From Pseudomonas syringae (GTDB lineage: Bacteria; Pseudomonadota; Gammaproteobacteria; Pseudomonadales; Pseudomonadaceae), in assembly GCF_021606685.1 (NCBI RefSeq), contig NZ_WKCB01000021.1:1-64000 (forward strand): a DNA stretch of 64,000 nucleotides. Direction: 5' to 3'. Numbering within the stretch: position 1 is the first letter of the stretch; each line of letters starts with the position of its first letter. Shown piece by piece: positions 974-14,583 of this stretch. The notes under the pieces are model-generated. The model worked only from the letters and a program-made list of their open reading frames with translations. It had not been told where the DNA came from and did not search any database. A program made the position numbers and the translations under genes.

Positions 974-1780
974 TTATTGAGCCCAACGCAATTGCGTAGG
1001 CAGCGGTGAAACAGGTTCGGGTTCCGGCGGCGTGCCGGGCAACGACAGCACACGGTTAAGCACTTGGGCTTCCAGCGCAGCCAGGCGATGTGAGCCCCGG
1101 GCACGCGGACGTGGCAGGTCGACGGTCAGGTCGAGGCCGATTTCGCCGTCTTCGATCAGGATCACGCGGTCGGCAATCGCCACCGCTTCGCTGACGTCGT
1201 GGGTCACCAGCAACACGGTAAAACCGTGCTTCTGCCAGAGGTTTTCGATCAACTGCTGCATCTCGATGCGGGTCAGCGCATCCAGTGCGCCCAAGGGCTC
1301 GTCGAGCAGCAGCAGGCGCGGCTGGTGAATCAACGCACGGGCCAGGGCCACGCGCTGCTTCTGGCCACCGGACAACGCCGCCGGCCACTCCTCGGCGCGC
1401 TCGGCCAAGCCAACGGCTTCCAGGGCGTCCAGCGCTTTGGGGCGCCAGTTGCCCTTGAGGCCCAGGCCCACGTTGTCGATGATCTTTTTCCACGGCAGCA
1501 GACGCGCTTCCTGGAACATCAACCGCGTGTCTTCAATCGCTTCGCTCAAGGGCGCGGAACCAGCCAGCAGCTCGCCGCCGCTGGCTTTGTCGAGGCCGGC
1601 CAGCAGGCGCAGCAAGGTACTTTTGCCGCACCCGCTGCGACCGACCACGGCCACGAACTGGCCTGCTGGAATATGCAGGTCAATCTCTTTGAGTACTTCC
1701 CGCGCACCAAAGGCCTTGCGCAACTTGCGCACCGCCAGCGGAATGCCTTTGAGCAGACGCGGAGGTTGTTGAGCGGTCAT
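974..1780 (-). CDS. ssuB: SsuB, aliphatic sulfonate ABC transporter ATPase
   Basis: This 268-residue ABC ATPase energises import of alkanesulfonates through SsuC. Walker A is GRSGCGKST (about residues 47-55), the signature LSGGQ is at 136-140, and Walker B LLLLDE is at 156-161, followed by the D-loop and the switch histidine in LLVTHD. It belongs to the nitrate/sulfonate/taurine importer subfamily. The start overlaps the end of ssuC by four bases, indicating translational coupling. A short C-terminal extension rich in Pro and Glu follows the ATPase core. Confidence 0.95.
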
Positions 1781-2565
1781 GCCGCACCTCCTTTATTCAC
1801 TTGATACGCCGGATGCCAGCGCAGCCACACACGCTCCAGGCCGCGCGCTGCGAGGTCGGCCAGCTTGCCGAGGATGGCGTACATGACGATGGCCAGCACC
1901 ACCACGTCGGTTTGCAGGAATTCACGGGCGTTCATCGCCAGGTAACCGATACCGGAACTGGCCGAAATGGTTTCCGCCACGATCAACGTCAGCCACATAA
2001 AGCCCAGCGCGAAGCGCACGCCCACCAGGATCGACGGCAGTGCGCCCGGCAAAATCACTTGCCAGAACAGGCTGAACCCGGACAAACCGTAGCTGCGCGA
2101 CATCTCCACCAACGCCGGGTCGACGTTGCGGATGCCGTGGTAGGTGTTGAGGTAGATCGGGAACAGCGTGCCGAGGGCGACCAGGAAAATCTTCGCCGTC
2201 TCGTCAATCCCGAACCACAGGATCACCAGCGGGATCAGCGCCAGGTGCGGCACGTTGCGGATCATCTGCACCGAGCTGTCCAGCAGGCGTTCGCCCCACT
2301 TCGACAGGCCGGTGATAAAGCCCAGGGCGAGGCCAATACTGCCGCCGATCACGAAGCCCAGGCCGGCACGCCAGCCGCTGATGGCCAGGTGAGTCCAGAT
2401 TTCGCCACTGGCCACCAGGTTGATCCCGGCTTCAATCACGGCACTCGGCGCCGGCAGGATGCGCGTCGACAACCAGCCCGCCGACACCGACAACTGCCAC
2501 ACCGCCAGTAATAGAACCGGCAGTACCCAAGGGGCCACACGGTGGCTTAGTTTTTCATAGTTCAT
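1777..2565 (-). CDS. ssuC: SsuC, aliphatic sulfonate ABC transporter permease
   Basis: This 262-residue inner-membrane permease belongs to the binding-protein-dependent transport family. Several hydrophobic segments are visible. The conserved EAA-type loop that contacts the ATPase is seen as [19 protein letters not shown] and the residues after it. It would form the channel for sulfonates delivered by SsuA. The gene starts 8 bases after ssuD and overlaps ssuB by four bases. Confidence 0.95.
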
Positions 2566-2573
2566 AGCACTGC

Positions 2574-3722
2574 CTAGCTCTGTGACGCAGCTTTGGGAAG
2601 GATGTCGTTGGCGACCATTTCGCCGAACGGGCTCACGTAACCGGCGCTTTTGGGCAGCTCTGGACGCTCGATATCCAGGTGTGGGAACAGCAACTCCGCG
2701 ACGCGATACGACTCTTCCAGGTGTGGGTAACCGGAGAAAATAAAGGTATCTATGCCCAATGCTGCGTATTCCTTGACCCGTGCCGCCACGGTTGGACCGT
2801 CGCCCACCAGCGCGGTACCCGCACCGCCACGCACCAGGCCGACGCCGGCCCAGAGGTTGGGGCTGACTTCGAGGTTGTCGCGGTTGCCGCCATGCAAGGC
2901 CGCCATGCGCTGCTGGCCGACAGAATCGAAGCGCGCCAGGGAGGCCTGGGCACGCGCGATGGTGTCGTCGTCCAGATGGGAGATCAGTTTGTCGGCGGCT
3001 TTCCAGGCTTCATCGTTGGTTTCACGCACGATCACATGCAGGCGAATACCGAAACGCACGGTGCGCCCCAGTTTCGCGGCCTTTGCCCGTACCTGTTCGA
3101 TTTTTTCCGCCACCGCAGCCGGCGGCTCGCCCCAGGTCAGGACCATTTCCACCTGTTCGGCTGCCAGGTCCTGGGCCGCTTCGGAGGAGCCGCCGAAGTA
3201 CAGCGGCGGGCGCGGTTGCTGGATCGGCGGGTACAGCAGCTTGGCGCCTTTGACGCTGATGTGTTCGCCGTCGTAATCCACGGTTTCGCCTTCCAGCACA
3301 CGGCGCCAGATGCGGGTGAATTCCACCGACGCCTGGTAGCGCTCTTCGTGCGTAAGGAACAAGCCATCGCCGGCCAATTCTTCCGGGTCACCGCCGGTCA
3401 CCAGGTTGAACAGCGCACGGCCACCGGACAGGCGGTCCAGGGTCGCCGCCTGACGCGCGGCGACCGTCGGGGAAATGATCCCGGGGCGCAGCGCGACGAG
3501 GAATTTCAAACGCTGGGTCACCGGGATCAGCGAAGCGGCCACCAGCCACGAGTCTTCGCAGGAGCGCCCGGTAGGGATCAACACCCCGCCAAAACCCAGG
3601 CGGTCAGCGGCCTGGGCCACTTGCTGCAGGTAACCGTGGTCGACGGCGCGAGCGCCTTCGGCGGTGCCAAGGTAATGGCCGTCGCCGTGGGTAGGCAGGA
3701 ACCAGAAAATATTGAGGCTCAT
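2574..3722 (-). CDS. ssuD: SsuD, FMNH2-dependent alkanesulfonate monooxygenase
   Basis: This 382-residue member of the bacterial luciferase-like TIM-barrel family has the length usual for SsuD. The enzyme uses FMNH2 from SsuE and O2 to split alkanesulfonates into an aldehyde and sulfite in the cytoplasm. Recognisable stretches are [20 protein letters not shown] at the N-terminus, the conserved [18 protein letters not shown] and the [12 protein letters not shown] segment. It lies between ssuA (25 bases upstream) and ssuC (8 bases downstream), so it is translated within the ssu operon. Confidence 0.96.
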
Positions 3723-3747: not shown

Positions 3748-4716
3748 TTACGGCGCTTTGGCCACAGCAGCGGGTGGCGTCCAGATCACGTCCTTGATGT
3801 TCAAGGGTTTGGGGATCAATTTGAGTTGGTAGAAGCTGTCGGCGATTTTCTGCTGGGCGGCGACCACTTCCGGGGTCAGGAACAGTGCGCCGTAGCCCTG
3901 GCGTTTCACCGAGGTCAGGGTGATGTCAGCCGGCAGCCCGAGCAGCGGCGCCACTTGGTCGGTGACTTCCTGCGGGTTGGCCTTGGACCATTCGCCCACC
4001 GCGCGCACTTCTTCAATCAGCGCCTTGACCACCTCGGGATTTTTTTCCGCGTAAGGCTTGGTGGCCAGGTAGAACTGATGGTTGTCGGCGATGCCGGTGC
4101 CGTCACGCAGGGTGCGCGCTTGCAGTTGTTTCTCGGCGGCGGCCTGGTACGGGTCCCAGATCACCCACGCATCCACACTGCCGCGCTCGAACGCAGCACG
4201 CGCATCGGCGGGCGGCAGGAACACGGTCTGCACGTCGGTGTACTTCAGGCCGGCGTCTTCCAGGGCACGAACCAGCAGGTAGTGCACGTTGGAGCCTTTG
4301 TTGAGCACCACTTTCTTGCCCTTGAGCTCGGCCACCGATTTGATCGTCGAGTCTTTCGGTACCAGGATCGCTTCACTGGTCGGCGCTGGCGGCTCGTAGG
4401 CCACGTAGAGCAGGTCGGCACCGGCGGCCTGGGCGAAGACCGGCGGGGTTTCGCCGGTAACGCCGAAGTCGATCGAACCGACGTTCAGGCCTTCAAGCAG
4501 TTGAGGGCCACCGGGAAACTCGGTCCATTGGACGTTTACGCCCTGGGCCGCCAGGCGTTTTTCCAGGGTGCCCTTGGCTTTGAGCAGCACCAGGGTGCCG
4601 TATTTCTGATAGCCGATCCGCAGGGTTTCGGCCGCTTGTGCTTGAACAATGGCGCCTAAGGACACAGCCGCAGCAAACAGTGCGACCAGACCACGACGCA
4701 AGATGACAGTGCGCAT
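3748..4716 (-). CDS. ssuA: SsuA, periplasmic aliphatic sulfonate-binding protein
   Basis: This 322-residue substrate-binding protein has a Sec signal peptide ([20 protein letters not shown], cleavage likely after AQAAE). The mature start, [20 protein letters not shown], is typical of SsuA. It captures alkanesulfonates in the periplasm and hands them to SsuBC. It is the second gene of the operon, 94 bases after ssuE, with a clear GGAGAG ribosome-binding site just before its ATG. Confidence 0.95.
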
Positions 4717-4810: not shown

Positions 4811-5404
4811 TTAAATGCTCCAGCGAGCACTCAACAAACGTTCATTCAACACATTGGGGTCCAGCGGTTTCGGGCGACGGGCCATGGCGCCGTAAAGCGT
4901 CTCCAGGGCCTCGTGCAAACGGTGTTCGAGTACCGGCACCAGCTGCGCCTGCGCGCTGCCTTCGCCATAGGCGATCTGGCTGTCTTCGGCAAAAATGCCG
5001 TGGAGCAACTCCTGGGCCTTGAGGGCCGACAACACCGGCTTCAAGGCGTAATCCACCGCCAACATGTGGGCGATGCTGCCGCCGGTGGCCATCGGCAATA
5101 CGATTTTGTGGGCCAGGGCGCGTTCGGGCAGCAGGTCCAGCACGGTTTTCAGCGCGCCGGAGAACGAAGCCTTGTACACCGGCGTGGCAATCACCAGGCC
5201 ATCGGCGTTAGCCACCTGTTGCAGCAGGTCAATGACCTTGGGGCTGTCGAAGCGTGCGTGCAGCAGGTCTTCAGCCGGGAAGTCCCGTATCTGGTAACTC
5301 ACTACCTCTACGCCTTTGTCTTGCAACCACTGACGGGTTTTATCCAGCAACACCCCGGAGCGGGAACGCTGGCTGGGACTGCCTCCAAGTGTTACGACCA
5401 ACAT
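4811..5404 (-). CDS. ssuE: SsuE, NAD(P)H-dependent FMN reductase
   Basis: This 197-residue flavodoxin-like reductase supplies FMNH2 to the monooxygenase SsuD. The N-terminus [20 protein letters not shown] carries the phosphate-binding GSPS(x)RS loop of the family, and [20 protein letters not shown] is the conserved central stretch. It is the first gene of the minus-strand ssu operon. The upstream 5410-5540 region is AT-rich and probably holds the sulfate-starvation promoter. Confidence 0.95.
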
Positions 5405-5693: not shown

Positions 5694-6332
5694 TTAGCGA
5701 TTAGGCTGCGGGGTGAGCCGCAGGTACGGCTTCACCGCGCGGTAACCCTTTGGAAAGCGTTTCTTGATCTCTTCCTCGTCCTTGAGCGACGGCACGATCA
5801 CCACTTCATCACCGTCCTGCCAGTTGGCGGGGGTGGCGACCTTGTGATTGTCAGTCAGCTGCAGCGAGTCGATGACCCGCAGGATTTCATGGAAGTTGCG
5901 GCCGGTACTGGCCGGGTAAGTGATGGTCAGACGGATCTTCTTGTTCGGGTCGATCACGAACAGCGAGCGCACAGTAAGGGTGTCACTGGCGTTCGGGTGG
6001 ATCAGGTCGTACAGGTCCGAGACCTTGCGGTCGGCGTCGGCCAGGATCGGGAAATTGACGACAGTATTCTGGGTTTCGTTGATGTCTTCGATCCACTTGT
6101 GGTGCGAGTCCACCGGGTCCACCGACAGCGCGATAGCCTTGACGCCGCGCTGGGCGAATTCGTCCTTGAGCTTGGCGGTGAAACCCAGCTCGGTGGTGCA
6201 CACCGGGGTGAAGTCCGCCGGGTGGGAAAACAACACACCCCAGCTATCGCCCAGCCATTCGTGGAAACGAATCGTGCCGGCGCTGGAATCCTGTTCGAAG
6301 TCGGGGGCGATATCGCCCAGTCTTAGGCTCAT
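5694..6332 (-). CDS. lsfA: 1-Cys peroxiredoxin LsfA
   Basis: This 212-residue Prx6-type peroxiredoxin has one cysteine, Cys45, in HPADFTPVCTTE; no resolving Cys is present, which fits the 1-Cys class. It reduces hydrogen peroxide and organic hydroperoxides. Pseudomonas LsfA was originally identified as a sulfate-starvation-induced protein, and its place directly upstream of ssuE on the same strand agrees with co-regulation. A separate terminator and REPIN lie between it and ssuE, so the two are probably separate transcripts. Confidence 0.93.
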   Translation of the reverse strand: MSLRLGDIAPDFEQDSSAGTIRFHEWLGDSWGVLFSHPADFTPVCTTELGFTAKLKDEFAQRGVKAIALSVDPVDSHHKWIEDINETQNTVVNFPILADADRKVSDLYDLIHPNASDTLTVRSLFVIDPNKKIRLTITYPASTGRNFHEILRVIDSLQLTDNHKVATPANWQDGDEVVIVPSLKDEEEIKKRFPKGYRAVKPYLRLTPQPNR

Positions 6333-6605: not shown

Positions 6606-7961
6606 TTACTTGAACGCGTAGGTGTAACTTACGATTACACGGTTTTCGTCTTGATCGCGCGCAGAAGCAACATCGTTGCGCCACATAGCGTTTTTCCAGG
6701 CGACGCCGACGTTTTTGAACGGGCCTTCTGGGACTACGTAAGCAACAGTGATGTCGCGCTCCCACTCGGTCTGGCCAGTCGACTCAACTTGAGTACGGGA
6801 GACGGTGTCGATGTCTGTACCTTTCAAGTAAACAACACCTGCGGTCAAACCCGGTACGCCAACCTTGGCGAAATCATAGGAGTAGCGAGCCTGCCAGGTA
6901 CGCTCGCCGGCACGGGCGAACTTAGCAATCTGCATGTCAGTAGTCAGGTAAGCCGACGAACCGTCGCCTTGGTTCAACCAAGGGAAGTCGCTGCTACCGT
7001 TGCTGACCTGGTAACCACCACCGAAGGTGTGACCGGCAACGGTGTACAGGAACAGGCCGCTGTACAGGTTGTTATCGACCTTGCCACGACCAGAGTTGAC
7101 GCCGCTGTAGTTACCCGACGAGAAGTACTCGGATTCTTTACCGTTTCGACCATCGTCGGAGCTGTTGAAGTAGCGCAGGTCAGACTTCAATACGCCCGGG
7201 CCGATCGCCCAGTTGTGGGTCAGACCCAGGAAGTGCTGCTTGTAGAAATCTTCCAGGTTGCCGTAGTAGTACTGGGCAGTCAGGTCCTTGGTGATTTTGT
7301 AGTCACCACCGGCGTAGTAGAACTTGTTGCTGTCACGCCAGCTGGCGCCACGGGAGTTGGCACCAGAAATCGACAGGTTGTCGACGTTGCTGGAGTTACG
7401 ACCCTTGGCTTTTTCGATCTGACCAGCAACCAGCGTCAGGTCTTTGATTTCGTTGGTGGTGATCTGACCACCCTGGAAGGTCTGCGGCAGCAGACGACCA
7501 TCGTTGGTCACGATAACCGGCAACTTAGGCTGCAGAGTGCCCAGCTTGAGCTCGGTTTCAGAGATCTTGGCTTTGGCAGTCAGACCCAGGCTCGAGAAGT
7601 TATCAACGGCTTTGCCGTTGGACTCGCTCGGGAACACAGTACCGCCGTAAGAAGTGCCGGTAGCGCCGTTGGTGCCACCACCAGAATCCAGGCGAACACC
7701 CAGCAGGCCGATAGCATCAAGACCGAAGCCTACAGTGCCCTGAGTGAAACCGGAGATGAAGCGCAGATCGAAGCCTTGACCCCACTCTTCCAGCTTGTTT
7801 TGCGCGTTGGCAGCTTTAGTGCCGCTGTCGCGGTTATCGGTGTTGATGTAAAAGTTACGCAGACCCAGAGTTACTTTACTGTCATCGATGAAACCGGCAG
7901 CGCCTGCTTGCTGGGCGATTGCGCCCAACGTTACAGCCAAAGCCAAGGTGGACTTCTTCAT
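6606..7961 (-). CDS. OprD-family outer-membrane porin (OprE-like)
   Basis: This 451-residue outer-membrane barrel has a clear signal peptide (MKKSTLALAVTLGAIAQQAG, cleavage near AGAA). The mature start GFIDDSKVTLGLRNFYINTD and the C-terminal VIVSYTYAFK are typical of OprD/Occ channels. These pass small anionic or amino-acid-like solutes. It stands between lsfA and a tauA-like gene, so a role in sulfonate entry is a reasonable guess but not shown. From memory, a porin annotated OprE occupies this position in P. putida. Confidence 0.88.
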   Translation of the reverse strand: MKKSTLALAVTLGAIAQQAGAAGFIDDSKVTLGLRNFYINTDNRDSGTKAANAQNKLEEWGQGFDLRFISGFTQGTVGFGLDAIGLLGVRLDSGGGTNGATGTSYGGTVFPSESNGKAVDNFSSLGLTAKAKISETELKLGTLQPKLPVIVTNDGRLLPQTFQGGQITTNEIKDLTLVAGQIEKAKGRNSSNVDNLSISGANSRGASWRDSNKFYYAGGDYKITKDLTAQYYYGNLEDFYKQHFLGLTHNWAIGPGVLKSDLRYFNSSDDGRNGKESEYFSSGNYSGVNSGRGKVDNNLYSGLFLYTVAGHTFGGGYQVSNGSSDFPWLNQGDGSSAYLTTDMQIAKFARAGERTWQARYSYDFAKVGVPGLTAGVVYLKGTDIDTVSRTQVESTGQTEWERDITVAYVVPEGPFKNVGVAWKNAMWRNDVASARDQDENRVIVSYTYAFK

Positions 7962-8065: not shown

Positions 8066-8282
8066 TCGTAACCTTGTGTGTCTACTACCTTCGTCTAATC
8101 GCAGTTGATTTGGTCCCTGCAGGGTAATGAGTTTTTCATACACCCAAAAAGAATTATTTCATTCTTTTTCATACGATCCAGGAATAAGCCTTTTCACGAC
8201 GCGAGCATGCCTGGATGGGCAAACCGCTCCATAAGCTAATTCCTAAAGGGTATTTGTTGACGCTTTTTTAGATCGATTAGTG

Positions 8283-8331: not shown

Positions 8332-9318
8332 ATGGCCAAACGCATATCCTCCCGTCAATTTGTTACAGTTTTTGTGTCACTAATTCTTTCTTTTGGTGTC
8401 AAAGCCGCCGATTTAACCATCGGCTACCAAACCGGCATTGACCCCAGCAAGGTTCCACAGGCTGATGGGCTGTATGAAAAGGCCATTGGCGAGAAGATTG
8501 CGTGGCGTCGATTCAACAGTGGGCCGGAAGTCGTCACGGCTATCGCCTCGGGCGATGTGCAAATCGGCAACCTCGGCTCCAGTCCTCTCGCGGCAGCGGC
8601 TTCGCGCAATTTGCCTATCGTCGCGTTCATCGTATCGGCGCAGATCAACAGTTCTGAAGCCCTGGTGGTACGCAACGGCAGCGGTATCGACAAACCTGAA
8701 GACCTGGTGGGTAAAACCATCGCCACACCCTTTGTATCAACCTCTCATTACAGTTTGTTGGGCGCGTTGAAACACTGGGGGCTGGATACCAAAAAAGTCA
8801 AAGTAGTGAACCTGCAACCCGCTGAAATCGCAGCAGCGTGGAAACGTGGCGATATCGACGGCGCCTTTGTGTGGTCACCGGCGCTGGGCGAGATCCGCAA
8901 GACCGGCAAAACCCTGACAGACGCGGCGCAGGTGGGCCAGTGGGGCGCTCCGACCTTTGAAGTGTGGGTGGCCCGCAAGGATTTCGCGGAAAAACATCCT
9001 GACGTAGTGGCCAAGTTTGCCAAGGTCACCCTGGACTCCTTTGCCGACTACGCCGCCCACAAAGACAACTGGACGGTGGACTCCGAGCCGGTGCAAAAAA
9101 TCGCAAAATTGACAGGTTCGAATGCCGCAGATATTCCAGAGCTGCTGGCCGGCACTACCTTCCCGGATGCGCAGGCACAGCAAACCGACGCACTGCTCAA
9201 GGGCGGCACGGCGAAGGCAATTGGGGAAACGGCGAAGTTTTTGAAGGAACAGGGCAAGGTTGAAAATGTGCTGCCGGACTATTCGGCCTTCGTAACCGAT
9301 AAATTCATCAGCCACTAA
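8332..9318 (+). CDS. tauA: TauA-like taurine/sulfonate-binding periplasmic protein (orphan)
   Basis: This 328-residue protein has a signal peptide (MAKRISSRQFVTVFVSLILS, cleavage after VKAA). The mature sequence, starting LTIGYQTGIDPSKVPQADGL with FNSGPEVVTAIASGDVQIGN, is characteristic of TauA. It would capture taurine in the periplasm. No tauB, tauC or tauD follows: the gene is succeeded by a REPIN and then argA on the other strand. It must use another permease or has a residual function. The reading frame is complete, and the substrate is inferred from the family. Confidence 0.85.
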   Translation: MAKRISSRQFVTVFVSLILSFGVKAADLTIGYQTGIDPSKVPQADGLYEKAIGEKIAWRRFNSGPEVVTAIASGDVQIGNLGSSPLAAAASRNLPIVAFIVSAQINSSEALVVRNGSGIDKPEDLVGKTIATPFVSTSHYSLLGALKHWGLDTKKVKVVNLQPAEIAAAWKRGDIDGAFVWSPALGEIRKTGKTLTDAAQVGQWGAPTFEVWVARKDFAEKHPDVVAKFAKVTLDSFADYAAHKDNWTVDSEPVQKIAKLTGSNAADIPELLAGTTFPDAQAQQTDALLKGGTAKAIGETAKFLKEQGKVENVLPDYSAFVTDKFISH

Positions 9319-9331
9319 ACCCGGTCAACAA

Positions 9332-9422
9332 TGTGGGAGGGGGCTTGCCCCCGATGGCAGTGGGTCAGTTAACCCATAAGTCACTGACAGACTGCCATCG
9401 GGAACAAGCCCCCTCCCACATT
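9332..9422. repeat. REPIN, GGGGGCTTGCCCCC class
   Basis: GTGGGAGGGGGCTTGCCCCC begins at 9333, and the opposite copy (GGGAACAAGCCCCCTCCCAC, one internal change) ends at 9419. The pair fills the gap between the convergent tauA-like gene and argA. Confidence 0.9.
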
Positions 9423-9427
9423 TGGAT

Positions 9428-10729
9428 TTACAGGGCCTTCTCGAAGATCTTCGAATTGCGCTGGTAGTTGTACAACGAGGCCCGCGCCGAGGGCAGCCGG
9501 TCGACGCTGCTCGGCACAAAACCCCGCTCACGGAACCAGTGGGCGGTCCGGGTGGTGAGGACAAACAATGTCTTCAACCCCTGGGCACGGGCACGGGTCT
9601 CGATACGCTCCAGCAACACATCACCGCGCGCGCCGTGGCGGTATTCAGGGTTCACCGCCAGGCACGCCAGTTCGCCCGCGTCCGAATCCGCGATCTGATA
9701 CAGCGCCGCACAGGCGATGATCATGCCTTCGCGTTCCACCACGCTGAACTGTTCGATCTCGCGCTCCAGCACTTCCCGCGAACGGCGCACCAGGATGCCC
9801 TGCTCTTCCAGCGGGCTGATCAGATCGAGCAAGCCGCCGACGTCCTCAATCGCCGCCTCGCGCACCAGCTCGAACTGCTCCTGGGCCACCAGCGTACCGC
9901 CGCCGTCCCGGGTGAACAGTTCGGTGAGCAGTGCACCGTCTTCGGCATAGCTGACAATATGGCTGCGCCCTACCCCACCCCGGCACGCCTGGGCAGCCGC
10001 GTCGAGCAGTTCGGCCTGGTAGTTGCTGCTGCCCAGGCGTTGCAGGTGCGCTGGCACTTGCTGCGGGCGCAATTCGCGCACCAGGCGACCATTTTCGTCG
10101 ATCAACCCGAGGTCGGCGCCAAACAGCAACAACTTGTCGGCGCCTAGGTCGATGGCGGCGCGGGTGGCGACGTCTTCGCAGGCCAGGTTGAAAATCTCAC
10201 CGGTAGGCGAATAGCCCAAGGGCGATAGCAGCACGATGGAGCGCTCGTCCAGCAGGCGATTGATGCCCTTGCGGTCGACGCGGCGCACTTCACCGGTGTG
10301 GTGGTAATCCACGCCTTCAAGCACACCGATCGGCCGTGCCGTGACCAGGTTGCCGCTGGCCACACGCAGGCGCGAGCCCTGCATCGGGGACGAGGCCATG
10401 TCCATGGACAGGCGCGCTTCAATGGCAATTCGCAAGTGGCCGACCGCGTCGATCACACATTCCAGAGTCGCCGCATCGGTGATGCGCAAGCCTTCATGGT
10501 AAGCCGGGGTCAGGCCGCGCGCCTCAAGGCGCGCTTCGATCTGTGGGCGCGAACCGTGCACCAGCACCAGCCGCACGCCCAGGCTGTGGAGCAGCACCAG
10601 GTCGTGGACGATATTGCCGAAGTTGGGATGTTCCACACCATCGCCGGGCAGCATGACCACAAAAGTGCAGTCGCGGTGAGCGTTGATGTAGGGCGAAGCG
10701 TGACGAAGCCAATTGACGTATTCGGGCAT
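9428..10729 (-). CDS. argA: ArgA, amino-acid N-acetyltransferase
   Basis: This 433-residue two-domain enzyme carries out the first step of arginine synthesis, N-acetylglutamate from glutamate and acetyl-CoA. It has an N-terminal amino-acid-kinase-like domain (about residues 20-280, with LVLVHGSRPQIEARL) and a C-terminal GNAT acetyltransferase domain (EYRHGARGDVLLERIETRAR). In pseudomonads ArgA mainly replenishes the acetyl cycle and is feedback-inhibited by arginine through the kinase-like domain. It lies 133 bases after argE on the same strand and has a complete family length. Confidence 0.95.
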   Translation of the reverse strand: MPEYVNWLRHASPYINAHRDCTFVVMLPGDGVEHPNFGNIVHDLVLLHSLGVRLVLVHGSRPQIEARLEARGLTPAYHEGLRITDAATLECVIDAVGHLRIAIEARLSMDMASSPMQGSRLRVASGNLVTARPIGVLEGVDYHHTGEVRRVDRKGINRLLDERSIVLLSPLGYSPTGEIFNLACEDVATRAAIDLGADKLLLFGADLGLIDENGRLVRELRPQQVPAHLQRLGSSNYQAELLDAAAQACRGGVGRSHIVSYAEDGALLTELFTRDGGGTLVAQEQFELVREAAIEDVGGLLDLISPLEEQGILVRRSREVLEREIEQFSVVEREGMIIACAALYQIADSDAGELACLAVNPEYRHGARGDVLLERIETRARAQGLKTLFVLTTRTAHWFRERGFVPSSVDRLPSARASLYNYQRNSKIFEKAL

Positions 10730-10862: not shown

Positions 10863-12011
10863 TTATGCAGGCTTGAGGCAGTAATGCTCGATCAGTTCCC
10901 GCAATAGACGCACTGTAGGCGTCAAGCGTGACATTTCGAGGTACTCGCCCGGCTGGTGGGCGCAGGCGATATCGCCAGGGCCCAACACCAGGGTTTCACA
11001 CCCAAGGCGCTGAAGATAAGGCGCTTCGGTGCCGAACGCTACTGCTTCGGCACGATGGCCGGTCAATCGTTCCGCTACGCGCACCAACTCGGCGTCTTCC
11101 GCTTGTTCGAACGGCGGCACTTCGGGAAACAATTGCGCGTAGTCGATCTTGACCTTGTGGCGTTCGGCCAAGGGTTCAAGCTTCTGTCGGATGGCGGCGC
11201 GCAGCACTTGAGGGTCCATGCCCGGCAAGGGGCGCAAGTCGAACTCCAGGGAGCATTGGCCGCAGATGCGATTGGGGTTGTCGCCGCCATGAATACACCC
11301 AAAGTTCATGGTCGGTTGCGGCACGCTGAATTGCGCGTTGCGGTACTCGCGCTGCCAGGCCAGGCGCAGGCCGCGCAGTTCACCGATGGCGTCATGCATG
11401 GCTTCAAGGGCGCTATGGCCCAGGCTTGGGTCCGACGAGTGGCCGCTTTGGCCGAGGATGTCGATACGCTCCATCATCACGCCTTTGTGCAGGCGGATCG
11501 GCTTGAGGCCGGTCGGCTCGCCGATCACCGCCGCACGACCCAGCGGGCGGCCCGCCTCGGCGAGTGCGCGGGCACCGGACATCGAGCTTTCTTCGTCACA
11601 CGTGGCAAGAATCAACAGCGGCTGCTTGAACGGCTGGTCCAGCAGCGGCAACACGGCTTCAATCGCCAGGGCGAAAAAGCCCTTCATGTCGCAACTGCCT
11701 AAACCTACCCAGCGGCCGTCGACTTCCGTCAACTTGAGCGGATCGGTCTTCCACAACGCCGCGTCATACGGGACGGTATCGCTATGCCCGGCCAGCACCA
11801 GGCCGCCGGGGCCACTGCCCAAGCTGGCCAGCAGGTTGAACTTGCCGGGGCTGACTTGCTGGATATCGATGGCGAACCCCAGGTCGCCCAGCCAGCCGGC
11901 GAGCAAATCGATCACCGGGCGGTTGGTCTGGTCGAGGGACGCTTGGGTGCAACTGACCGACGGCGCGGCGATCAGCGCGGCGAACTGCTCTTTCATGGAC
12001 GGTAACGGCAT
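10863..12011 (-). CDS. argE: ArgE, acetylornithine deacetylase
   Basis: This 382-residue M20-family zinc hydrolase removes the acetyl group from N-acetylornithine in arginine synthesis. The metal-binding histidine is in LVLAGHSDTVPYDAALW, with the DEESSMSGA acidic cluster near residue 140. I chose the ATG at 12011 (MPLPSMKEQFAAL) because it gives the family length and has a GAGGGA ribosome site. An in-frame start 39 codons upstream would add an unrelated tail. Upstream, 12012-12169 is the divergent promoter region with the CYTH/CHAD gene. Confidence 0.92.
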   Translation of the reverse strand: MPLPSMKEQFAALIAAPSVSCTQASLDQTNRPVIDLLAGWLGDLGFAIDIQQVSPGKFNLLASLGSGPGGLVLAGHSDTVPYDAALWKTDPLKLTEVDGRWVGLGSCDMKGFFALAIEAVLPLLDQPFKQPLLILATCDEESSMSGARALAEAGRPLGRAAVIGEPTGLKPIRLHKGVMMERIDILGQSGHSSDPSLGHSALEAMHDAIGELRGLRLAWQREYRNAQFSVPQPTMNFGCIHGGDNPNRICGQCSLEFDLRPLPGMDPQVLRAAIRQKLEPLAERHKVKIDYAQLFPEVPPFEQAEDAELVRVAERLTGHRAEAVAFGTEAPYLQRLGCETLVLGPGDIACAHQPGEYLEMSRLTPTVRLLRELIEHYCLKPA

Positions 12012-12169
12012 GCGCGGTCCCTCAACTTCCCGGATGAGCCCCACTATAGAGCCATCTGCACGACACAATAAACCGTTGCGGCGCGTTGCCGGGCTCAGTC
12101 CTGTACACTGCACGACCTTGGCAGCCACTCTTTTCCCCGGCTGCGCTCCCGATCCTGGATTTTCCGGCC

Positions 12170-13537
12170 ATGCAGAAAGAAACCGAAATCAAGCTCCGCG
12201 TCAGCCGCGAAACACTCGTCGCGCTGCGTGAGCACCCGCTACTGAAAAAACGCAACAAAAGTGGCTGGGAACGCCGTGAGTTGATGAACCAGTACTTCGA
12301 CACCCCTGAACGCGACCTGGCCCAGGCCAAGGTTGCCCTGCGTTTGCGCAAGGACGGTGACGATATCATCCAGACCCTCAAGACCCGTGGCCAAAGCGTC
12401 GCCGGCTTGTCGGAACGCAACGAGTACAACTGGGACCTGCCCAAAGCCAAGCTCGATGTGAAAAAACTCGACGGCGAATGCTGGCCCGAGCAACTGGCCG
12501 AGCTGGACAAAAAGACCCTCAAGCCGATTTTCACCACCGATTTCGTGCGTGAACGCGCCGAAATCGCCTGGGGCCGTGGCAAGGCCAAAGTCGTGATCGA
12601 AGCCGCCCTGGACCTGGGCCATGTGGTGGTCGGCAAGCAGAAAGAAGAAATCTGCGAGCTGGAACTGGAACTGCGCGAAGGCGAACCCGCCGCCCTGCTG
12701 GAGTTGGCCGCCGAGCTGGCTGCCACCCTGGCGCTGATGCCGTGTGATATCAGCAAGGCCGAGCGCGGCTACCGCCTGTACGACGCCAGCAGTTACTCGT
12801 TGAGCCTGCCAGCGCCGCAGGTCCACGCCGAAATGCCGCTGGACGATACCTTCGCTGCGATCATGTGGCACTTGTTGGGCAGCAGCCAGCGTCTGGCTGA
12901 GCAATATCGTTTTAATGGCCACTGGCGCCTGCTGCAAGACTGGGTCGAGAACCTCGGCGAACTGCGCGCCCTGATCGGCAGCCTCGGCCAGGCCGCACCG
13001 CGCCAATCCACCAGCGAACTGCGCAGCGCACTCGATGCCCTGCTGGAAGACTGGCGCCCACTGGTCCAGGCCGGTGACGACGATGAAGACATTCGCAAAG
13101 CGGCGCCGGAGCAGTTCGTCGAAGAATTGGACGACGTGCGCTGGGGCCTGTTCTCACTGAACCTGTCGCGCTGGCTGCTGGCTCGCACCTGGGCCGCCGA
13201 CCGTAACGTGCGTGGCAACCGCCAGGGCGCTGCGCAAATCACCAACTGGTTGCCGCGCTTGCTGGCCGACGACGCCGTCGCCCTGCAACTGCAGCGCTAC
13301 CAGCAGCAACCGGAAGACCTCGCCGAACAACTGCCGCGTATCGAGCGCATCCAGGCCTGGCTGCACCATGCGCGTCACGTGGTGGACATCCCGGAATTGG
13401 ACCGCCTGTACGGCGAGCTGAACAAGTTGGCCCAACTGGCCAACCAGCCGATCACCGATGAATCGCTGGATGCGCGTATGCACCAGGCGATTGCGGTGTA
13501 TCAGAACCGTGCGTGGAAGACGTTGCTGCGCCTGTAA
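12170..13537 (+). CDS. CYTH and CHAD domain protein, probable inorganic triphosphatase
   Basis: This 455-residue protein has an N-terminal CYTH domain bearing the ExExK signature (Glu4, Glu6, Lys8 in QKETEIKLRV) and the tunnel residues LRLRKDGDDIIQTLKTRG. The C-terminal CHAD helical domain (from about residue 220) has a histidine-containing helix near HARHVVDIPEL. E. coli YgiF has this architecture and hydrolyses inorganic triphosphate. The ATG at 12170 places ExExK at the N-terminus as in the family. Polyphosphate genes ppx and ppk lie 40 kb away in this window, but no direct link is evident. Confidence 0.9.
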   Translation: MQKETEIKLRVSRETLVALREHPLLKKRNKSGWERRELMNQYFDTPERDLAQAKVALRLRKDGDDIIQTLKTRGQSVAGLSERNEYNWDLPKAKLDVKKLDGECWPEQLAELDKKTLKPIFTTDFVRERAEIAWGRGKAKVVIEAALDLGHVVVGKQKEEICELELELREGEPAALLELAAELAATLALMPCDISKAERGYRLYDASSYSLSLPAPQVHAEMPLDDTFAAIMWHLLGSSQRLAEQYRFNGHWRLLQDWVENLGELRALIGSLGQAAPRQSTSELRSALDALLEDWRPLVQAGDDDEDIRKAAPEQFVEELDDVRWGLFSLNLSRWLLARTWAADRNVRGNRQGAAQITNWLPRLLADDAVALQLQRYQQQPEDLAEQLPRIERIQAWLHHARHVVDIPELDRLYGELNKLAQLANQPITDESLDARMHQAIAVYQNRAWKTLLRL

Positions 13538-13541
13538 GATC

Positions 13542-13637
13542 GCCATCGGGGGCAAGCCCCCTCCCACAGTGGATTGGGTTCACAACTTTCTATTTGTGAA
13601 CACAGTCAGTGTGGGAGGGGGCTTGCCCCCGATAGGG
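13542..13637. repeat. REPIN, GGGGGCTTGCCCCC class
   Basis: Inverted REP copies lie at about 13545-13567 and 13611-13633. The spacer contains its own inverted repeat, TTCACAA...TTGTGAA (13579-13600). It sits between convergent genes. Confidence 0.9.
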
Positions 13638-13646
13638 TCGGCCCTG

Positions 13647-14117
13647 TCAGCGCAATACTGGCAGGCTGGTCGTGGACTTGATCTCCGACAACGCCACAAT
13701 CGAATTAACCTCCTGAATCCCCGGTACCATCGACAGCTTGTCGAAGAAGAACCGCTCGTACGCCTCGATATCCGACGCAACGATCCTGAGCAGAAAATCC
13801 ACCGCCCCCATCAGCACGTAACACTCCAACACTTCCGGAAACCCGCGAATGGCCTCGGTGAACTCGGTGAAGTTGGATCGGCCGTGGGCGTTGAGTTTGA
13901 CCTCGGCGAAGATCTGCGTGTTGAGACCGATTTTCTTGCGGTCCAGCAAGGTGACCTGTCCCCGGATCACGCCCTCCTCCTTGAGCCGCTGGATACGCCG
14001 CCAGCACGGCGACTGGGACAGCCCAACCTGCTCGGCGATCTGTGCGCTGGAGAGCGAGGCGTCCTCTTGCAGCAACGCCAGGATACGGCGGTCGTAGACG
14101 TCCAACTCACTGTGCAT
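13647..14117 (-). CDS. Lrp/AsnC family transcriptional regulator
   Basis: This 156-residue regulator has an N-terminal winged helix (LDVYDRRILALLQEDASLSS, then AQIAEQVGLSQSPCWRRIQR) and a C-terminal RAM ligand-binding domain with VLMGAVDFLLRIV. Such proteins sense amino acids and often control a divergent gene. Here the divergent gene is a 112-residue protein of unknown function. I chose ATG 14117 (MHSELDVYDRR) because an upstream in-frame start would add 18 unconserved residues. A nested inverted repeat in the shared upstream region is a candidate operator. Confidence 0.9.
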   Translation of the reverse strand: MHSELDVYDRRILALLQEDASLSSAQIAEQVGLSQSPCWRRIQRLKEEGVIRGQVTLLDRKKIGLNTQIFAEVKLNAHGRSNFTEFTEAIRGFPEVLECYVLMGAVDFLLRIVASDIEAYERFFFDKLSMVPGIQEVNSIVALSEIKSTTSLPVLR

Positions 14118-14170
14118 AAAAATACCTTCGTTCCCATACCCGCTGGATTGCTTGATTCGTTTTATCGCCA

Positions 14171-14202
14171 AACGGACCTATCTTAGATAAAAAATCTCCG
14201 TT
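14171..14202. promoter_or_regulatory. Nested inverted repeat between lrp-type gene and divergent gene
   Basis: AACGGA (14171-14176) and TCCGTT (14197-14202) flank an inner palindrome TATCT-T-AGATA (14179-14189). It is a candidate binding site for the Lrp-type regulator. Confidence 0.4.
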
Positions 14203-14244
14203 CCAGCATGTAAAAATTTCTCCAGTCAAATCCGGAGAGCCAGC

Positions 14245-14583
14245 ATGTACGCCGTCGAAACCCCTCACGCCCCTGCCCGTGTCGACGCATGGGCGGTCAA
14301 CAGCGCCCATTGCCAGGCGCATTATCGGATCGTCGCCGAAGCTGAGCCCGATGTGCTGTGCCGCGTACTCAACTTTTTTGCCTTGCAGTTCCTGACGCCC
14401 AGCCAGGTTACGGTGAACCGGGAAGACGACCTGCTGCACCTCGACATCCTGATGGATGGCCTGAGCTGGCACCGCGCCCGAGTGATCGGTGAAAAGATTC
14501 GAAACCTGATCAGCGTGTGCACGCTGGAACTGCGCCCAGCTGATTCCATGGGGCTTCAAGCGGCACTGGCCGCCACTCGGTAA
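14245..14583 (+). CDS. Conserved hypothetical protein, ACT-like size and layout
   Basis: This 112-residue protein starts MYAVETPHAPARVDAWAVNS, with a good GGAGAG ribosome site. It has no signal peptide or membrane segment. The stretch VLCRVLNFFALQFLTPSQVT and the DDLLHLDILMDGL segment suggest a small alpha/beta fold of the ACT type that could bind an amino acid. It is divergent from an Lrp-type regulator with 127 bases between them, so it is probably that regulator's target. I do not recognise a specific function. Confidence 0.6.
   Translation: MYAVETPHAPARVDAWAVNSAHCQAHYRIVAEAEPDVLCRVLNFFALQFLTPSQVTVNREDDLLHLDILMDGLSWHRARVIGEKIRNLISVCTLELRPADSMGLQAALAATR

Follow-up and report, generated by a model that had tools for sequence, protein, structure and literature searches.

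In E. coli, taurine is said to travel via the TauABC importer and not via SsuABC (PMC6906117, in the part available). The same part of that source reports that Asp205 of the binding protein TauA gives taurine selectivity, and that the Asp205Ala variant binds taurine at 23 uM instead of 1.6 nM. TauA and TauC of P. aeruginosa are increased 2- to 6-fold under sulfur starvation, according to the accessible part of PMC12581299. A literature search outside which most subscription papers fell found no description of the TauA2 clade or of the splitting of the tau genes presented below.

The window, the whole 64,000-nucleotide stretch of DNA that was analysed, contains a second TauA gene of its genome, here called tauA2, next to ssu (Table 1). 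The account that we favor, and consider probable as a whole, is that tauA2 was split from a tandem pair of receptor genes by an inversion, that the two halves are still switched on together, and that TauA2 acts as an accessory receptor for TauBC.

Table 1. Features of the window and of contig C131 of the same genome.
Feature	Position	Strand	Remarks
ssuB	974..1780	-	NF008420 473.6 bits, over cut-off
ssuC	1777..2565	-	NF008470 455.9 bits, over cut-off
ssuD	2574..3722	-	TIGR03565 632.8 bits, over cut-off
ssuA	3748..4716	-	NF008588 333.5 bits, over cut-off
ssuE	4811..5404	-	TIGR03567 240.7 bits, over cut-off
1-Cys peroxiredoxin, LsfA type	5694..6332	-	Pfam AhpC-TSA and 1-cysPrx_C; NF009668 over cut-off
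OprD-family porin	6606..7961	-	divergent from tauA2; PF03573 474 bits
Upstream element TAAGCTAAT(N4)AAA(N3)TATTT(N)TT(N9)TTAGATC(N2)TTAG	8232..8280	+	49 bp, before tauA2; like that before tauA1
tauA2	8332..9318	+	328-aa periplasmic substrate-binding protein, TauA-type; the genome's second TauA paralogue
Inverted REP-like pair	9330..9422		tauA2-argA gap, at the proposed inversion junction; 32-bp inverted repeat, at most 2 mismatches
argA (N-acetylglutamate synthase)	9428..10729	-	TIGR01890 716 bits; new neighbor after the proposed inversion
argE (acetylornithine deacetylase)	10863..12128	-	NF003474 594.5 bits, cut-off 460
tauD	C131:10991-11788		245 bits
tauC	C131:11824-12597		384 bits, over cut-off
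tauB	C131:12660-13424		454 bits, over cut-off
tauA1	C131:13457-14347		TIGR01729 450 bits, over cut-off; first gene of tauABCD

A TauA paralogue beside ssu and a complete tau operon elsewhere

In the list of open reading frames tauA2 is intact, as the preliminary description had it; it is a single frame with an ATG start, and its N-terminus (KR, a hydrophobic stretch, then VKA-AD) resembles an export signal by eye. The product scored 440.1 bits against TIGR01729, the taurine-binding equivalog (cut-off 304.25). It stayed below the cut-offs of NF008553, a narrower E. coli-type model (398.8 against 490), and of the SsuA-family model TIGR01728 (132.8 bits against 163.5). The best solved relative in a PDB search was E. 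coli TauA (6ssy; E = 2.5e-105). The window gene is real, complete and clearly TauA-type.

The same description placed argA next door on the other strand and saw no taurine ATPase, permease or dioxygenase gene following; both points hold, as the open reading frame list and family searches put none of tauB, tauC and tauD beside tauA2. The peroxiredoxin gene between porin and ssuE is taken to be lsfA. A short minus-strand frame after ssuB (731-946), presumably ssuF, is ssuF-like (molybdopterin-binding) by eye and matched no NCBIfam family at 1e-20. The GTG start given for argE is probably too early, since the family match starts at residue 40.

Other tauBC and tauD genes, which the preliminary description proposed to look for, were found by family searches of the window's own genome. 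Contig C131 carries tauA-tauB-tauC-tauD in order on one strand (10991-14347), with gshA upstream of tauA1 (TIGR01434 529 bits, cut-off 393). This operon rules out the suggestion of a tau module with nothing left but its substrate-binding gene. Two findings had been named that together would tell against the earlier reading, a full tauABCD set elsewhere and no effect of deleting the gene on sulfonate use; the first of these was found. TauA1 and TauA2 are 57% identical, and in a 57-row tree made by a quick method, where E. coli TauA forms a long outgroup, they fall into separate clades (19 and 37 rows, support 99 each). A recent tauA duplication is ruled out by this identity and these clades. 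The genome also has a second TauD-family gene (C74:9633-10451; L026), which scored 235.7 against the taurine dioxygenase cut-off of 313, i.e. under it, and lies close to ABC genes and a binding-protein gene of its own.

With TauA2 as query, 162 of 199 Pseudomonas genomes gave at least one match at E <= 1e-70. Matches of at least 70% identity were taken as the TauA2 clade, which is present in 80 genomes (in G076 the match spans residues 53-327 only); TauA1-type matches lie far below, at 55-59% identity among the matches listed. Across the class, the same query found no match at E <= 1e-100 in 274 genomes except in its own, and TIGR01729 at E <= 1e-85 matched only 2 other genomes in 369 of the class-wide set.

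In 49 of the 80 clade genomes tauA2 is convergent with argA. All 49 keep the order porin-tauA2-argA (the porin match is short or weak in G176) and have a second TauA match, which is TauA1-type among the matches listed with identity. Six genomes hold tauA1 and tauA2 together with tauBCD, in the order A2-A1-BCD (G086, G130, G076) or A1-A2-BCD (G154, G194, G064). Eleven have tauA2-tauBCD without a further TauA match (G001, G023, G043, G080, G120, G146, G147, G149, G161, G164, G181), so that tauBCD adjoins tauA2 in 11/11 genomes whose sole TauA is TauA2. Co-encoding with tauBC, absent at the window gene, is thus present for the clade in 17 other genomes. In one genome (G009) tauA2 is beside ssu but split from the tau genes, and in 13 it lies at other places (G051 and 12 genomes that form a subgroup with 70-73% identity). 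TauC was over its cut-off in 162/199 genomes and was encoded in 80/80 clade genomes (E <= 1e-105); no genome with TauA2 and without TauC occurred among these 80. In G060 and G075 there is a weaker TauC match, yet no TauA at 1e-90.

The named relatives comprised the best 80 loci, all from Pseudomonas. Porin-tauA2-argA was present in 78, and the other two (L065, L070) end before argA. At least part of ssu was present in 77, the exceptions being L065, L106 and L116 (SsuD was unscored in L091, L093 and L109). TauB was found at none of the 80, with a query set that did not include TauC and TauD. The porin-tauA2-argA layout is no local accident.

Some loci differ in detail. In G009 (L183) tauA2 is beside ssu and followed by unrelated genes, tauA1BCD is elsewhere and there is no argA within the stretch; this is apparently an independent split of the tauA2/tauA1 pair. 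G086 (L182) has an extra SsuA-like binding-protein gene (46% identity to SsuA) near 9321, in the porin-tauA2 interval, giving three receptor genes in a row. Evolution of the porin next to tauA2 is rapid (median dN/dS 0.184), and in 13/80 named loci another porin gene adjoins it.

Binding pocket and retention of TauA2

Pocket residues were taken from E. coli TauA as described in the available part of PMC6906117; Asn55, Asp84 and Ser109 were left out owing to a numbering mismatch. The alignment had 171 TauA2 rows, in which several genomes repeat, and 41 TauA1 rows, including the 215-aa L017, a cut copy of the genome's own TauA1. In the commonest TauA2 pattern (154/171 rows) Gln30, Ser60, Gly61, Gly79, Glu106, Thr132 and Trp176 are kept, together with Gly32, Phe204 and Glu205. 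These rows thus have all four sulfonate-coordinating residues (Gln30, Gly61, Gly79, Thr132) and the hinge residue Glu106. Phe204 is common to TauA1 and TauA2.

Position 205, residue 210 in TauA2 itself, separates the two proteins. It is Glu in 169/171 TauA2 rows, with a stop in the other two (G119 twice), and Asp in 41/41 TauA1 rows, which also have Thr32 in all but one cut row. Asp205 occurs in E. coli TauA and in both TauA proteins examined from other genera. Glu205 is probably the derived state, since E. coli TauA, TauA1 and these two other-genus TauA proteins carry Asp. Given the weakening caused by Asp205Ala in E. coli TauA, Glu may keep, weaken or redirect binding, and the ligand of TauA2 may therefore differ. 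The mismatch lowers the claim that TauA2 binds taurine and leaves its TauA-type identity untouched. Since TauBCD accompanies TauA2 in the 11 genomes that have no other TauA, the likeliest ligand is a substrate of TauD, either taurine or a closely related compound.

A stronger version can be put forward tentatively: TauA2 could be a receptor of changed specificity, marked by the Asp-to-Glu exchange and Gly32, that brings a different aminosulfonate to TauBC and TauD, with one importer served by two receptors and then divided by inversion into two units under one element. We regard it as possible and would not put it at even chances.

Two observations concern unusual pockets. The 12 TauA2-like proteins at 70-73% identity (L186-L197; genomes G196, G132, G141, G095, G085, G053, G059, G044, G068, G198, G048 and G107) have lost the sulfonate-binding Gln30, which is Ile in 11 and Val in one; their genes lie away from tauBC and, in G141, G048 and G107, immediately adjoin a TauD-like gene. 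In G119 (L139, L204) the in-frame stop falls on the Asp/Glu selectivity codon of TauA2.

Where it is kept, TauA2 is under purifying selection. Its median dN/dS over the 80 named loci was 0.052 (from 641 random pairs out of up to 800), compared with 0.059 for SsuA, 0.025 for ArgA, 0.034 for LsfA, 0.018 for SsuD and 0.184 for the porin. Loss does occur, and was read at named loci only, not counted over all 199 genomes. In G179, G165, G004 and G101 argA is beside the porin and the tauA2 gene is gone; at 82-92% identity the gaps still resemble the region upstream of tauA2 and its first codons, and that of G179 holds further tauA2 fragments. Among 17 genomes with the gshA-tauA1 junction, a sample chosen by score, 9 retain TauA2 on the argA side and 8 are without a close copy. 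In-frame stops were found in 1/80 named loci (L082, P. antarctica) and in G119.

These remnants, missing copies and stops could mean that TauA2 is a disappearing relic, with no role since it left the operon. This is unlikely: the dN/dS of TauA2 is close to that of SsuA and far from neutral, the upstream element and the pocket are conserved, and the other 79 named loci have no stop. Kept in some relatives and lost in others, TauA2 is useful but dispensable, and its dispensability counts against the favored account.

Proposed division of the tau locus and the common upstream element

In G086, G130 and G076, oprD-tauA2-tauA1-tauBCD forms a single array, which in G086 reads in full ssu-lsfA-oprD-(another binding protein)-tauA2-tauA1-tauBCD. 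In G086 gshA and argA are convergent neighbors, and both ancestral pairs, tauA2-tauA1 and gshA-argA, are thus found in one genome. Window-type genomes have argA-tauA2 and gshA-tauA1BCD. If the segment from argA to tauA1 is inverted, gshA> <argA and <tauA1 <tauA2 become gshA> tauA1> and argA> <tauA2, matching the orientations observed. In the proposed course of events, the ancestral Pseudomonas tau locus would have been oprD / tauA2-tauA1-tauBCD beside ssu, with two tandem substrate-binding genes. A chromosomal inversion with breakpoints tauA2|tauA1 and gshA|argA would then have brought tauA2 next to argA and tauA1BCD next to gshA; the event is deduced from these gene junctions.

The neighbor of argA on this side was read in 23 hand-picked genomes with argA located. 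It was gshA in 10, TauA2 in 2 and a TetR gene in 2. A porin like that of the window (74-90%) takes this place in 4, and one of 47% identity in 1. The remaining 4 show no such neighbor, and 1 of them lies at a contig edge. The upstream neighbor of tauA1 was gshA in 17 of the 30 best-scoring TauA1 loci. In single-contig derived genomes the halves lie on opposite sides of the record start, and in G175, for example, their distances to the two ends are 264 kb and about 311 kb. Such records by convention start near the origin.

Placement of the tau halves by duplication or transfer could be argued from the seven of 23 argA loci that have neither gshA, TauA2 nor a window-type porin beside argA. It is quite improbable, since both reciprocal junctions and both ancestral pairs were found in the orientations that one inversion demands. 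A literature search on a gshA/argA inversion gave no relevant title.

Inverted pairs resembling what we take to be REP repeats occur in both gaps of the window's own genome (32 bp in the window, where 30 shuffles gave at most 12; 30 bp on C131) and in the tauA2-argA gaps of G029 (25) and G099 (29). Some intact gaps have them too, namely gshA-argA in G086 (26 bp) and in G043 (18 bp), and tauA2-tauA1 in G076 (28 bp) and in G130 (23 bp). They are not in every intact gap, as the tauA2-tauA1 gap of G086 and the gshA-argA gap of G023 are at shuffle level (11 bp). REP-mediated recombination is a possible cause of the rearrangement.

The upstream element is common to both halves and is proposed to be a sulfur-starvation activator site with a promoter; that the regulator is CysB is a guess. 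When up to 3 mismatches are allowed, the 5.9-Mb genome has 3 sites for it and none for the reversed pattern. The pattern was derived from tauA1 and tauA2 sequences and matches these by construction; its rarity and the third site are independent. Within 300 nt upstream, and with at most 5 substitutions, it precedes 125/145 distinct TauA2 genes and 30/35 distinct TauA1 genes (4 are without it and 1 is cut); it was found in 0/1060 shuffles at the same tolerance. Because both halves retain their own copy, tauA2 and tauA1BCD would be expected to remain co-activated, with sulfur starvation as the probable trigger. No published support for this predicted co-regulation was found: the accessible part of a table of root-exudate-repressed genes has one TauA row, part of tauABCD, and no second TauA (PMC8079746).

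The third site precedes a 2OG-Fe(II) oxygenase gene followed by MetQ-, MetN- and MetI-like genes (C48:375-3714; L253, L254). The MetQ- and MetN-like products are under their family cut-offs and the MetI-like one is just at its cut-off. This is perhaps an unstudied organosulfur operon of the tau-element regulon.

Role of TauA2 and comparison with known systems

TauA2 is best read as a real, conserved and fairly ordinary second receptor. Once exported, TauA2 would bind periplasmic taurine or a closely similar aminosulfonate and, alongside TauA1, pass it to the TauBC importer that the other locus encodes; TauD would then free sulfite. Delivery to a distant Tau system was among the options of the preliminary description, and it gains from the complete tauABCD on C131, from tauBCD in all 11 genomes with TauA2 as sole TauA and from TauC in 80/80 clade genomes. 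No structure of a Tau importer came up when the PDB was searched with TauC.

Another of those options, that TauA2 shares the neighboring SsuBC importer, now looks very unlikely. Its argument is the neighborhood: ssu or lsfA is beside the porin in the 22 argA-adjacent genomes read with long flanks (the others, read with 1.5-kb flanks only, have the porin), and most named loci have at least part of ssu. This neighborhood is older than the split, however, as tauA2-tauA1-tauBCD is already beside ssu or lsfA in G086, G130 and G076, and nothing else speaks for sharing. Against it also stand the tauBCD genes adjoining tauA2 in every TauA2-only genome, the TauC of every clade genome, the sub-threshold SsuA-family score of TauA2 and the statement on E. 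coli SsuABC and taurine cited at the outset (PMC6906117, in the part available). That TauA2 is a taurine sensor, for example feeding a chemoreceptor, has only the absence of an adjoining importer to suggest it and is highly improbable, given that no receptor gene was recognized beside tauA2 by eye or by family search and that relatives have tauA2-tauBCD operons.

An orphan binding-protein gene beside ssu is likely to be misread as what is left of a lost taurine system; in the favored account this one serves as a second receptor, and its importer is encoded at another chromosomal site. The intact intermediates show a gene cluster cut between two receptor genes with neither lost; a separate copy of the control element at each gene would have made this possible. 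The conserved Asp/Glu difference offers a natural test of what sets the taurine selectivity of TauA.

SsuA of the window and TauA2 both match the Pfam families NMT1, OpuAC and NMT1_2, and TauA2 reaches the cut-off of neither SsuA model. TauA1 of the same genome is, like TauA2, over the TIGR01729 cut-off and preceded by the common element; it differs in sequence (57% identity), in keeping Asp205 and in heading a tauABCD operon. E. coli TauA (6ssy) belongs to the same family, and the available part of PMC6906117 allows a comparison by residue: Gln30, Ser60, Gly61, Gly79, Glu106, Thr132 and Trp176 are kept in TauA2, whereas Ser32, Leu204 and Asp205 are replaced by Gly, Phe and Glu. Unlike E. coli TauA, TauA2 of the window is not encoded with TauBC. 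The arrangement proposed for TauA2 is that of HisJ and LAO (ArgT), related binding proteins that serve one importer, HisQMP2; for these, sharing is stated as established in the accessible part of PMC5708682, whereas for TauA2 it is deduced from genomes.
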